Below are positions 6,258-19,291 of a stretch of 24,497 nt of DNA, piece by piece (the stretch's first letter is position 1; every line of letters begins with the position of its first letter). Both the position numbers and the translations under genes were made by a program. This stretch comes from a virus: the IMG/VR virus record IMGVR_UViG_3300034375_001388, positions 1 to 24,497 of that record, one strand, 5' to 3'. The notes under the pieces were generated by a model, which saw only the letters and a list, made by a program, of their open reading frames with translations, was not told the origin of the DNA and ran no database searches.

Positions 6258-8159
6258 TTATCCAGTTGGTTTCGGGGTAGGGCCAAATATAGAGCCGATA
6301 ATACCACCTGCGATACTACCAAATAATCCGCCTACAGCCAAGTCAGATGCTAGATCTAGATCCTTATCATAAGCAAAAGAAGCTAAGGCCAGATTATTCC
6401 GATATTCCTGATCATTCAAAGCAGCAACCCGAGCAAAGTTAATCTCATCCCGCTGCTGCTGTAGGATCTGAGCCTGAGCATTCTGACTGATATTGAACAG
6501 GTTACGTACGTTAAACTCATTCTCAGCATTAGCGATTGCAGTATTAGCGGTATTAATCTGTCTGCGATATACAGCGTTAGCCTGATCGATAACGATGCTG
6601 TTCTTAAGGTTGAACTGTTCTCGCTGATTTGCCAACTCTGAGTTAAACTGTGCTACGGCATTAGTCTGACCGGCGTTAAACTGTGAGATAGCATTTTTCT
6701 GAGCAGCATTAAACTGTGCAGTCTGATTAAACAGACCCGCAAAGAACTGATCATTCTGTTGCTCGGAGGTCGCATTAAACTGTCTAGCACTGTTGGTCGC
6801 AGCCTGATCGTTAAATAGACTTTGGATCTGATTCTGCGTGTTGGTTACCCGAGCCTGCTGTTCATTGCTTAGGTTCTGTAGATCCATCTGCAATGTCATC
6901 TGAGCGTTCAAAACTTCAGCTTGCTGACGGTTGTTCAGGTTTAGTTCCTGCATACGCCGGTATGTTTCGGCATCGGCAGCGGCAATAGGTGTACTAGCCT
7001 CCATAGCAGCCTGAACAATAGCAGCACCGGCCATACTAGAGGCACCCATGCCCCTGGCAGCTAGTCTCTGTTCAGCGGTACGAATAGCACCGGCAGCAAA
7101 GGCAGGAATCTGACCGCCTTCAAACTGCTGCATAAGTTGAGCAAGTTGACCCTGAACAGTAGACTTTACATCCACCTCACCTTTAGCAGGTTCTACATAA
7201 TCTGTCAAGCCTTGCTGTTTAGCGGCCTGGATCTGAGTTTTAGCAACCCGATCAGCAACCTGATTAGCCTCGTATGAAGTAGCATCGGTCTTAGTCGGAT
7301 CTACAGCCTGAGATACTTGAGCCTGGGCGGCTTGGATATTATATTTAGTAGGAGTTGCCTTATACTTATCAGCATCAAGAAACTCGTCAGGCTGTGCTTG
7401 ATAACGCTGTAGAGATAGTTCTGTACCCGGAGGAAGTTCAGGATTCTCGGCAAGTTCAGCCATCCTACCTAATGGTGTAGTCTTACCGTACGGATCAGCA
7501 TAGGACTGCTTAGAACCTACAGCTTGTTTATACCGGTCATAACCGCCTTCACCGAATACACCTAGATACCCTGTATCTCTAGCGGTCTTGCGCTCACCTA
7601 GAGTATCAAGGATGGACTTTAGTTCTAGTACAGCCGGGTCATTAGGATCAGTAGCGTTCTTAGCAGCGTCAATCTTTTCCTGTAGATTCAGGTCTTCTGG
7701 AATACCTGTACCGCCTAAAAGGTCTTGGCGAATTTTTTTAGTTTCTGGATCTAGGAATGCTGATATACCTGTCTCGTATTGGCCTACAGTACCTCTAGTA
7801 GTTTGATATCCCTGGATCGTTGCCACTTCGTCCGCTGATCTACGGAATAGATCAGGCCCCTGTTGCTGGTATTGTCCTGGTAACTGTATCCGAGGATCGC
7901 CTGGGAACACACCTTGGTAATGAGCATATAAGGATTCATCACGGGTAGGCGCTCTACCATACTGCTGTAGGAACAGGTCTCTTTGTCTGTACTGATCTTT
8001 CGACCACCCACCTGTAAAACCGGGGTCTTGAGCAACATCGGGTCGGGCTGCTAGATATGCTTCTGGGTCGAACTCGGCATAAGACAAAGTTCCCTCTCGT
8101 GGTGTATAAGCACCAGAGCTATAATAATCGCTGTAATTATAGTTGCCGATCTGAACCAT
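6258..8159 (-). CDS. Candidate internal virion protein with QFNA repeats and C-terminal glycine zipper (633 aa)
   Basis: The N-terminal half is tyrosine-, proline- and glutamine-rich. It includes a segment (PEAYLAARPDVAQDPGF) that resembles the repeats seen in some marine bacterial surface proteins. Residues about 366-390 read GMGASSMAGAAIVQAAMEA, which I associate with internal structural proteins of marine phages from memory only. Residues about 390-600 are a long, asparagine- and glutamine-rich helix; at roughly 456-520 a short unit of the form QFNAxxxNAxx repeats several times. The last 30 residues (AVGGLFGSIAGGIIGSIFG) are a glycine zipper suited to membrane insertion. A long helical body with a membrane-active tail fits an ejection protein released into the cell envelope. 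The ribosome-binding site (AGAG, six bases before ATG) is modest. Confidence 0.75.
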   Translation of the reverse strand: MVQIGNYNYSDYYSSGAYTPREGTLSYAEFDPEAYLAARPDVAQDPGFTGGWSKDQYRQRDLFLQQYGRAPTRDESLYAHYQGVFPGDPRIQLPGQYQQQGPDLFRRSADEVATIQGYQTTRGTVGQYETGISAFLDPETKKIRQDLLGGTGIPEDLNLQEKIDAAKNATDPNDPAVLELKSILDTLGERKTARDTGYLGVFGEGGYDRYKQAVGSKQSYADPYGKTTPLGRMAELAENPELPPGTELSLQRYQAQPDEFLDADKYKATPTKYNIQAAQAQVSQAVDPTKTDATSYEANQVADRVAKTQIQAAKQQGLTDYVEPAKGEVDVKSTVQGQLAQLMQQFEGGQIPAFAAGAIRTAEQRLAARGMGASSMAGAAIVQAAMEASTPIAAADAETYRRMQELNLNNRQQAEVLNAQMTLQMDLQNLSNEQQARVTNTQNQIQSLFNDQAATNSARQFNATSEQQNDQFFAGLFNQTAQFNAAQKNAISQFNAGQTNAVAQFNSELANQREQFNLKNSIVIDQANAVYRRQINTANTAIANAENEFNVRNLFNISQNAQAQILQQQRDEINFARVAALNDQEYRNNLALASFAYDKDLDLASDLAVGGLFGSIAGGIIGSIFGPTPKPTG

Positions 8160-16668: not shown

Positions 16669-17475
16669 TTAAGCAGCCTTTAACCAGCGAACAGGGAAAT
16701 CATCCTGCAAAGAATAGGAATGTTTATTGATATTGTTTTGAATCAAACACTTTAGTAATGTGTCACCGTATAGATTAAACCTGATACCTTTTTGAGTATG
16801 TAGTATCTGGATAATCTTCATTGCTTCTTCTGCCATACCGATATATTCAGTTGTGGTATAGTAAAGATTATTAGTGATAGGGCAGGATACGGTTACTTCT
16901 TTATAGGTTTCGTCGTGCTTGTTTTCTCGGTTGACTCGGTAATCATCTACTGTTTTGTTATAACCGCAGTCAAATCCGAACAGGTTTATTTTCTTATATC
17001 CGAGCCATACAGATAAAAGAATAGCATGAACAGTGGAGTTAGATCCAGCAGACATACATTTATCAGAAGGTTGCCACGTCTTGGAAGTGACAGTATCTAT
17101 CATATATGTTTTGTAATTCTTTAGCGCGTCAAATAGACTAGGGTCACACTGAGAGGAAATAATGTAGTTGGTTTTTTTGTTTAGTTGGGCTTTATTACCG
17201 GACTCTCTAGGATCAATAGACACGCTGTATCTTGGATCGCAACCGATAGAGGTTAGGTAATTAACAGTCTTAGACGCAAAGATATCGTTCTTAGAAATAC
17301 GAAGGAACTTCTCAAACTGTCTAATACTTGGACCGGCAGCACAAATATTAATTTCTTCGCTACGTTTATGTGGGCTGTTCTTTAGTTTGGGAAGAGATGG
17401 TAGGTCGCGGTTCCTATTAATTTCGTAGTTAGACTTGAGAGTATCTTCCGAAACAGAACAGTGTAACTGTACCAT
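16669..17475 (-). CDS. DUF115 / MptE-like domain protein in the structural operon (268 aa)
   Basis: Residues 42-50 (INICAAGPS) are the nucleotide-sugar-type loop of DUF115 proteins. SIDPR at 86-90 and the segment from GSNSTVHAILLSVWLGY to INLFGFDCGY (144-172) are the other conserved marks. Known relatives include 6-hydroxymethylpterin pyrophosphokinase (MptE) and the Maf flagellin glycosyltransferases, so a phosphotransfer or glycosyltransfer activity is plausible. The substrate cannot be told. The gene lies between the decoration and adaptor genes, where no enzyme is normally required, and is visibly AT-richer than its neighbours (row 16741 is about 35% GC by eye). That suggests a later insertion. 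The ATG follows GGAG at five bases. Glycosylation of a virion protein or of the host surface are two possible roles; both are inferred. Confidence 0.8.
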   Translation of the reverse strand: MVQLHCSVSEDTLKSNYEINRNRDLPSLPKLKNSPHKRSEEINICAAGPSIRQFEKFLRISKNDIFASKTVNYLTSIGCDPRYSVSIDPRESGNKAQLNKKTNYIISSQCDPSLFDALKNYKTYMIDTVTSKTWQPSDKCMSAGSNSTVHAILLSVWLGYKKINLFGFDCGYNKTVDDYRVNRENKHDETYKEVTVSCPITNNLYYTTTEYIGMAEEAMKIIQILHTQKGIRFNLYGDTLLKCLIQNNINKHSYSLQDDFPVRWLKAA

Positions 17476-18028: not shown

Positions 18029-19081
18029 TTATTCGTACACGTTATAGATGGCGCGGGTGACTGCTTCTGGACGAAGTAGCTTACGGCCATAAAGGTGCAG
18101 ACCACGAACAACGTCGCTAAAGCTGTCATTGTCGCGATAGGTCTCTACCTTCTCGATCTGAGAAGCGGTAGCAACGGCAGAGTCGTGACCGGCAATGATA
18201 ACACCGAAGTTAGCGGCGGAACCACCGGTAGCGACAGTACCCGGACCAGTACCAATAATCGGCAGGTTGTTTGACATGTAGATGCGGAAACCGCGAACCA
18301 TGCCATCGACGATACGACCGTTACGGAGGATATCGCCTGCATCCTGGCGACCGGCAAAGTCATTGCTTAGTAGCTTTGAGTTTTCGTCGTTAAGCTGCTC
18401 GGCAAAGACTGGATCGACAACTAGCCAACGACCGTCACGATCAACGTTCTGCTGGTCTAGCTTGCGAGCCATACGGTTGATAACAGCCAGTGGCGAGATA
18501 GCACTGGTGTTCTGACCGACCGGAATGGAGTTAGCAGTACCACCGAAGTCGCTAAGGTCTAGCTTCATGGAAGCAAGAAGACCATCAGCATCGGATGACA
18601 CCGGATCAGTACCGGATTTGTCAGCGGCAACACGAGCGGTACTAGCATTGGCATGTAGAGCGGCCTGCTTGTAACCGGACATGTAACCGAAGATCTCCTG
18701 GTCAAACTGGTCACGAAGGCGATAACCAGCGCGATCAGTAGCAAGAGATTCGAAGTTCACATGGGAATGTGCAGCTTCAATGTCATCGATCTTGAACGCG
18801 AAGTAGTTTGCCTGATCGATAACAAGAGTGAAATCTTCGTCGTCCAGATCCTGTGGGACAACCTGTGTACCACGGGAATAAGCCTGAACAGAGACTTCTG
18901 GCTCTTTGATAATACGAACGGAATCACCAAAGTTGGAGATCTCGCCCATGTAGTCGTTGTTAGTGATGTCCTCAACTACTGAGGTTTTCCGAAAGGCAGT
19001 TTGTACCTTCTTAGAATAGATAACTGGACTAAAGTTACCATTAGGAAGGTTACCATATCCTGCCGCACTCCTAAATGCCAT
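18029..19081 (-). CDS. Major capsid protein, HK97-fold type (350 aa)
   Basis: Length and composition fit a podovirus coat protein. Recognisable capsid elements are an N-terminal region ending in DYMGEISNFGDSVRI (residues about 43-57), the E-loop-like VSVQAYSRGTQVV (about 63-75), then the strand and spine helix ANYFAFKIDDIEAAHSHVNF (91-110) and AGYRLRDQFDQEIFGYMSG (118-136). The A-domain has GRWLVVDPVFAEQL, MSNNLPIIG and the C-terminal VVRGLHLYGRKLLRPEAV. It lies after the scaffold gene and before the decoration gene, which is the canonical order. AGGAG (19093-19089) lies seven bases before the ATG. Expression appears boosted by a private consensus promoter and a structured leader upstream. 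I am confident of the identity. Confidence 0.93.
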   Translation of the reverse strand: MAFRSAAGYGNLPNGNFSPVIYSKKVQTAFRKTSVVEDITNNDYMGEISNFGDSVRIIKEPEVSVQAYSRGTQVVPQDLDDEDFTLVIDQANYFAFKIDDIEAAHSHVNFESLATDRAGYRLRDQFDQEIFGYMSGYKQAALHANASTARVAADKSGTDPVSSDADGLLASMKLDLSDFGGTANSIPVGQNTSAISPLAVINRMARKLDQQNVDRDGRWLVVDPVFAEQLNDENSKLLSNDFAGRQDAGDILRNGRIVDGMVRGFRIYMSNNLPIIGTGPGTVATGGSAANFGVIIAGHDSAVATASQIEKVETYRDNDSFSDVVRGLHLYGRKLLRPEAVTRAIYNVYE

Positions 19082-19186
19082 GAGTTTTCTCCTTTCAAAA
19101 AGTGCGGAAAAGAGCTAACGTCGGTCATCCAAGGCTGACAAAGGATAGGGTGGGTAATTAAACCGGCCTAGTTTATCAGGTAGTTG

Positions 19187-19246
19187 AAAGCGAAGGTTAG
19201 CCGCTGTCGAATTGTAAGCGGTGGTCCCAACCTCGGGAGGCGCTTT
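19187..19246 (-). promoter_or_regulatory. Structured RNA element in the capsid leader
   Basis: On the minus strand one unbroken 19-base 3' arm (19205-19187) pairs with three 5' segments. AAAGCG (19246-19241) pairs with CGCTTT; GAGGTTGG (19234-19227) pairs with CTAACCTT using two G-U pairs; CCGCT (19221-19217) pairs with AGCGG. The 5' arm has two bulges, CCTCCC and GACCA, and the apical loop is eleven bases. The element starts about ten bases after the predicted transcription start. The bulge contains CTCC, complementary to GGAG of the capsid ribosome-binding site, which is only four pairs and may be chance. Confidence 0.7.
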
Positions 19247-19262
19247 GGTATTAATATGCACT

Positions 19263-19291
19263 ATTATAGTCTAATCCTAAAATGGTGTCAA
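19263..19291 (-). promoter_or_regulatory. Perfect consensus sigma70 promoter for the capsid gene
   Basis: The minus strand carries TTGACA (19291-19286), a 17-base spacer and TATAAT (19268-19263): both hexamers match the bacterial consensus exactly at optimal spacing. Transcription should start near 19257, giving a leader of about 175 bases before the capsid ATG at 19081. It begins eight bases beyond the scaffold stop codon. It is the only full consensus promoter I noticed in the window, and points to use of the host RNA polymerase for late genes. Confidence 0.9.

Follow-up and report, generated by a model that had tools for sequence, protein, structure and literature searches.

What does the 218-nt gap encode that, in an HMO-2011-type phage, separates the gene in the scaffold position from the major capsid protein (MCP) gene? 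The window, that is, the whole 24,497-nucleotide stretch of IMG/VR record IMGVR_UViG_3300034375_001388 analyzed here, derives from such a phage: its MCP is 61-65% identical to those of Puniceispirillum phage HMO-2011 and of roseophages, with DNA matches to the same phages. Phages of the HMO-2011 type rank among the dominant marine phages, and the paper describing the group mentions no promoters, terminators, intergenic or noncoding elements (PMC9038755); the note on phiM6, a phage of Sinorhizobium meliloti, likewise mentions no promoters. A first-pass annotation, made from the sequence alone, had drawn a structured RNA leader as a three-helix hairpin across 19187-19246, a span that sits in the gap. 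The question addressed here is which RNA structure this leader conserves and what that structure may do.

The capsid leader and the hairpin first drawn in it

The MCP gene stands at the head of a long one-strand late operon of roughly 18 kb, behind its own promoter (Table 1), and the open reading frame upstream of it is a putative scaffold gene on the basis of gene position only. Within the structural operon, at 16669-17475, an MptE-like (6-hydroxymethylpterin diphosphokinase-like) protein is encoded (Pfam E 1e-14). The consensus promoter that the first-pass annotation had noted upstream of the element was confirmed (Table 1) and, because the match is perfect, we take the MCP leader to extend from a predicted transcription start at ~19256 to 19082, with the MCP start at 19081. 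Promoters matching at least 9 of 12 consensus positions precede MCP in 81 of 104 relatives, versus 29 in shuffled sequence. No intrinsic terminator, the feature looked for in a transcription attenuator, was found inside the leader (19081-19255).

Table 1. Features of the capsid locus, in window coordinates.
Feature	Position	Strand	Evidence or remark
Major capsid protein (MCP) gene, P22/HK97-type coat	18029..19081	-	PHROG 267 major head protein, E 4e-68; Pfam Phage_capsid_4
Upstream ORF in scaffold position, 282 aa	19300..20148	-	PHROG 13678, no function given
Sigma-70 promoter TTGACA-17-TATAAT	19263..19291	-	12/12 consensus match
Hairpin A, AAGCG-(CC)-UCCC..GGGA-(CCAC)-CGCUU	19216..19245	-	Third copy of the CC/(N)YAC internal loop, 5' in leader
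P2 outer helix, 5' strand GGCUAAC	19196..19202	-	Pairs with 19119-19113
P2 outer helix, 3' strand GUUAGCU	19113..19119	-	Two bases in common with Shine-Dalgarno hairpin
Core, whole	19128..19188	-	R1 match and covariation
P3	19188-19184/19132-19128	-	Core helix
Loop 1	CUAC 19183-19180, CC 19134-19133	-	Core internal loop
P4	19179-19175/19139-19135	-	Core helix
P5	19170-19167/19149-19146	-	Core helix
Loop 2	CC 19166-19165, CAC 19152-19150	-	Core internal loop
P6, apical loop UUAAUU	19164-19162/19155-19153	-	Core terminal stem, short
Possible hairpin CUCUUUUC/GAAAGGAG over MCP Shine-Dalgarno (19096-19089)	19089..19114	-	Predicted

Minimum free energy (MFE) folding of the minus strand from 19246 to 19187 reproduced the hairpin as drawn (-18.1 kcal/mol), with the helices AAAGCG/CGCUUU, GAGGUUGG/CUAACCUU and CCGCU/AGCGG and the one-sided bulges CCUCCC and GACCA. 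The further claim that such a hairpin would be unexpected by chance was not borne out, since the 60-nt hairpin has a z score of -1.52 and 16 of 200 dinucleotide shuffles are equally stable; it is the full 178-nt leader that folds better than chance (z -2.75, 1/200 shuffles). The pairing is also lost in relatives. The MFE fold of L001, which has a 100% identical MCP, is a different, local hairpin (AAGCG-CC-UCCC..GGGA-CCAC-CGCUU), and in L004 and L028 (MCP 81-88% identical) nothing in the upstream strand pairs with the 3' arm. The leaders of these last two have z scores of about -6 and fold into the local hairpin, termed hairpin A, plus others; hairpin A is the MFE fold in all three relatives.

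As a conserved fold, the three-helix hairpin is rejected by the shuffles and by its loss in relatives; its pairing is an artefact that arises when one sequence is folded alone. Its left arm is part of the local hairpin at 19245-19216, whereas its right arm contributes to an outer helix (19202-19196 with 19119-19113) and to the beginning of the core described below. What holds of the original description is that the capsid gene has a structured RNA leader; its coordinates cover the 5' third only and its pairing was wrong. The check for covariation among at least ten diverged leaders that had been proposed for the hairpin is failed by that hairpin and strongly passed by another structure in the same leader. 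There is only a very slight chance that the long hairpin is a real alternative conformer, competing with hairpin A and P2 as a built-in switch: by standard energies, which ignore non-canonical pairs, it is ~4 kcal/mol better than the conserved fold and it is still likely in L003, but it is lost in L001, L004 and L028 and displays no covariation.

The annotation's statement that no known RNA family could be assigned agrees with searches of Rfam 15 at gathering and relaxed thresholds, which returned no match in the window or its leader. Leaders of relatives were likewise without match, the Rfam matches in these loci lying outside the leader (group I intron and tRNA, with SorX and sR52 below threshold).

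A rod with two inverted internal loops

Some 410 loci that encode relatives of the MCP were gathered from IMG/VR, from reference phages and from GTDB contigs. Their leaders contain a core whose order, recognized by eye and then by script, is common to all major groups: P3-(N)YAC-C..P4..P5-G-CC-P6..P6'-(N)YAC-C-P5'..P4'-G-CC-P3'. The core is a rod in which one internal loop, CC opposite (N)YAC, occurs twice in opposite orientation, the two copies being ~16 nt apart. This loop is of the 2x3/2x4 type (G-CC-Y opposite R-(N)YAC-C), and its copies lie about one helical turn apart in an approximately two-fold layout. A strict descriptor of this arrangement (score at least 20) matched 148 of 316 non-identical leaders and none of 948 mononucleotide-shuffled sequences, while an earlier descriptor lacking the optional N had matched only 60 of the 316. 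Among the 148 descriptor-positive leaders, the spacing from loop to loop is exactly 16 nt in 112, despite the variable length and sequence of P4 and P5.

Hairpin A, further 5' in the leader, contains a third copy of the same internal loop. Hairpins of this type occur in 35 of 104 leaders versus 0.7 in shuffles, and the count falls to 0-3 when the loop letters are altered. The "bulge" that had been matched to the capsid ribosome-binding site in the first-pass annotation has its CC from one of these three copies of a conserved loop motif, and that match is accordingly dropped.

Covariation supports the core at several levels. When 18 leaders of the HMO group were aligned with plain MAFFT, 97% of cells were paired and both sides had changed in 12 of 21 pairs; none of 500 shuffles was as good, and sliding reduced the pairing to 31-42%. 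RNAalifold predicted identical helices save for a small shift in P5. A covariance model built from those 18 leaders with the window left out (R1) nevertheless finds the window at 19126-19189 (E 2.3e-8), and across 100 diverse sources 58 of its 58 matches lie in MCP leaders. A second model (R2) widens the element to the phiM6, Rhizobium, CRP-207 and CRP-738 groups. With 100 diverged members aligned, double changes were seen in 21/21 pairs (605 cells), and seven of the eight core loop letters are kept in 100/100 leaders and the eighth in 97/100; these 100-member alignments were made to the model and are biased in its favor, unlike the 18-leader MAFFT alignment. In a phylogeny-aware test, wherein column-wise substitutions were re-thrown on the MCP tree and scored with an APC-corrected G-test, 14 of 21 pairs reached E<0.05, and the sole extra pair of columns above threshold was the next pair of P5. 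A conserved folded RNA structure in the MCP leader is therefore near certain.

Outside the core the picture is more varied. The core is enclosed by P2, which reads GCUAAC/GUUAGC in the window, GCAAAC/GUUUGC in HMO-2011 types and CAGAAG/CUUCUG in the CRP-738 group. This helix differs between groups and hardly within them, which we count against our best explanation; because P2 is uniform inside each group, its support comes from between-group changes only. Closer to the start codon, the Shine-Dalgarno sequence of the window has an unpaired probability of 0.07 versus 0.27 with shuffled flanks, and in 82 of 128 leaders the Shine-Dalgarno is less accessible than shuffled. The effect is strong in the window and the CRP-207 group and on average absent in the HMO-2011 group, a result that does not support universal Shine-Dalgarno masking and on account of which no general on/off switch is visible.

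Two further features were seen in this part of the leader. In L035, L040, L043, L082 and L139 another hairpin (GCGUAU/AUAUGC, GCAU/AUGC) immediately precedes the Shine-Dalgarno and overlaps the 3' strand of P2, an arrangement that might act as a switch. Leaders of the CRP-207, CRP-738 and L035 groups have in common a GCCAU(A/U)UC-like stretch before the Shine-Dalgarno, 15-30 nt before the ATG, whose UGCC might, in some members, base-pair with an apical loop reading GGCA.

Occurrence upstream of the MCP gene

Complete phages carry one confident copy each, upstream of MCP (HMO-2011, CRP-1, -3, -207, -212, -235, -345, -603, ctYwJ313, phiM6 and RHph_N3_13), and CRP-738 has a degenerate copy at most. 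No leader element was found in the HMO-2011-type pelagiphages HTVC033P and HTVC115P, a second point counted against our best explanation, nor did one turn up in front of the MCP of Aeromonas 1233 or of Vibrio CHOED, in which MCP directly adjoins the gene upstream. As a control independent of MCP, 80 loci were fetched by DNA pattern: 32 of 32 strong model matches are immediately followed by an MCP gene, which in one case is interrupted, and two other matches are at chance level. Weak R2 matches away from MCP (G002:C1:50457-50505, E 0.008; W16 (CHOED) 7298-7379, E 0.016) are probably due to chance. A general operon-head element is rejected by whole-genome searches, which give one copy per phage.

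The distance from the end of the core to the MCP start codon is mostly 43-63 nt (median 53), whereas that from the predicted start of transcription or promoter to the core is spread over 44-129 nt. Because the former is narrow and the latter spread, the element appears tied to the start of MCP translation and not to the promoter. Like an operator, it is exclusive to one gene and near the start codon of that gene. Translational control, which the first-pass annotation had suggested from the match between bulge and ribosome-binding site, consequently stays the best guess on different grounds, namely that the element is tied to MCP only and keeps a narrow distance to its start codon.

These same data bear on two other readings. 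A cis-acting antiterminator that, like the HK022 put RNAs, attaches to RNA polymerase and thereby lets it read a late operon of roughly 18 kb would suit an element at the head of a long one-strand operon with its own promoter, but we consider it improbable given one copy per genome, absence from other operon heads and a position fixed to the ATG, not the promoter. A riboswitch or metabolite sensor in the capsid leader would account for the strongly conserved loop letters and compact fold, yet it is more doubtful still: Rfam has no match, model searches never place the element before metabolic genes, and the loops are pyrimidine-rich and form two identical sites.

Several neighboring features were recorded in these loci. 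The MCP gene of L429 (600-1500) is interrupted by a group I intron-looking insert with a homing-endonuclease-like ORF, its leader being intact at 296-372, and L029 has a group I intron (RF00028, 72 bits) at 2574-2813, the 3' end of the MCP gene. In phage ctYwJ313 an HNH endonuclease gene separates the upstream gene from the MCP leader (L085:1-484); a tRNA gene is found a short way upstream of the leader at L052:489-561, and a SorX-like sRNA match (41 bits, just below gathering) at L402:108-171 on the minus strand of an HMO-type phage contig. L418-L424 and L429 are HMO-2011-type phage contigs within bacterial and archaeal MAGs, including two identical pairs common to a Flavobacteriales and a Marinimicrobia MAG; their presence there is binning contamination.

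Palindromic apical loops and possible functions

Members with a long P6 have apical loops rich in palindromes. A 4-nt palindrome occurs in 27 of 41 distinct loops (same-letter shuffles: mean 11.8, maximum 22 in 3000 shuffles) and a 6-nt palindrome in 13 of 41 (mean 1.5, maximum 6). Some 9-nt apical loops read AA, a 6-nt palindrome and R, the arrangement of the HIV-1 DIS; the HMO-2011 leader has CGGCCA and that of CRP-1 CUGAUCA. Six palindromes recur (GGCC, GAUC, AGCU, GUAC, CUAG and GCGC), none confined to a single MCP group, such that long-P6 members keep a self-complementary apical loop through sequence changes, as DIS-like elements do. Because the letters swap while self-complementarity stays, the long-P6 leaders are predicted, from sequence, to form kissing homodimers through this loop. 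The short-P6 group, to which the window copy belongs (Table 1), has no enrichment of 4-nt palindromes. An intramolecular GGC/GCC pseudoknot of the apical loop was rejected as a misfit with the GAUC, AGCU and GUAC lineages. The palindromes could instead act in the DNA, as a protein site or mutational by-product, given that in DNA a stem capped by a palindromic loop amounts to a long inverted repeat. This is unlikely in view of six different palindromes at the same place and of the lack of excess in other hairpin loops of the same leaders (31/128 vs 34.7 expected) and in hairpin loops of the MCP coding region (150/902 vs 206 expected).

We tentatively favor the reading that this is a conserved cis-acting RNA element in the MCP mRNA 5' leader of HMO-2011-type phages, serving translational control by a factor that binds the twin loops; what we say of its ligand, of the direction of control and of dimerization in vivo is what we infer. 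The promoter between the scaffold-position gene and MCP would yield a transcript whose leader folds into the 5' hairpin, the outer helix and the rod. With their roughly two-fold arrangement, the inverted twin loops may be where a factor docks, the simplest candidate being a symmetric protein dimer; once bound, it would set MCP translation via the nearby ribosome-binding site. In long-P6 lineages, two leaders might also be joined by the palindromic kissing loop. Candidate factors include the coat or scaffold protein itself, which would give autogenous control, and a conserved host RNA-binding factor. When four phages with the leader were compared with two without it, the frames confined to leader-bearing phages were all antisense and internal to the MCP and terminase genes. 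This presence/absence pattern rejects a dedicated phage regulator and, since no gene is so confined, the factor would be a shared structural protein, a host factor or the RNA alone by dimerization.

The last of these options can be carried further into a self-sensing RNA, in which two capsid mRNAs, each bearing the twin loops and, in most long-P6 lineages, a palindromic apical loop, would kiss into a symmetric dimer and thereby tune or localize coat synthesis for shell assembly. Dimerization, with or without coat or scaffold on the twin loops, would report the local capsid mRNA concentration or link two translating mRNAs; we regard this as possible, though doubtful. Another proposal, that the folded leader shields an abundant late transcript from 5'-end-dependent decay and has no specific ligand, draws on the capsid requiring the most mRNA, on a stable 5' structure near the predicted transcription start and on the presence of the element on the MCP gene only. 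It is rather unlikely, as shielding would not call for invariant letters in the internal loops, for loops spaced at a fixed 16 nt or for a narrow distance to the start codon.

Autogenous mRNA leaders such as ribosomal-protein leaders and the thrS operator have symmetric or repeated binding sites that fit a dimeric protein. The MCP leader resembles them as a folded 5' leader positioned close to the start codon of its own gene, and differs in sequence and fold, in having no Rfam match and in belonging to a phage capsid gene. Palindromic kissing-loop dimers are known from the HIV-1 DIS and oskar mRNA (PMC7357161), with which long-P6 MCP leaders share a long stem topped by a self-complementary apical loop of 4-6 nt; unlike these, the MCP leader is part of a DNA phage mRNA, uses many palindromes and has no genome RNA to package, and the window copy lacks the palindrome feature. 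The phi29 prohead pRNA (PMC7357161) is likewise a phage RNA oligomerizing by loop-loop pairing, which is predicted for long-P6 MCP leaders, but pRNA is a free RNA of the packaging motor whereas the element described here forms part of the MCP mRNA. HK022 put RNAs are also structured phage RNAs shortly behind a promoter; the MCP leader is set apart from them by its single copy and its fixed position relative to the start codon. Finally, the manA, wcaG and PhotoRC-II cyanophage leader RNAs (PMC2864571) are structured cis RNAs known mainly, as here, from marine phage and metagenome DNA, with other genes and folds and no match of the MCP leader in the Rfam search.

We thus class the MCP leader RNA as a new structured mRNA leader family, part of which has predicted kissing-dimer capacity, and do not claim for it a place among DIS-like dimers or autogenous operators. 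To our knowledge, a homodimerizing regulatory mRNA leader in a DNA phage would be new, if true. The element is compact and defined, has invariant letters and sits on the gene that phages express most. It makes two questions testable: how coat and scaffold are balanced in DNA phages, and whether homodimerization serves as regulation in phage mRNAs.
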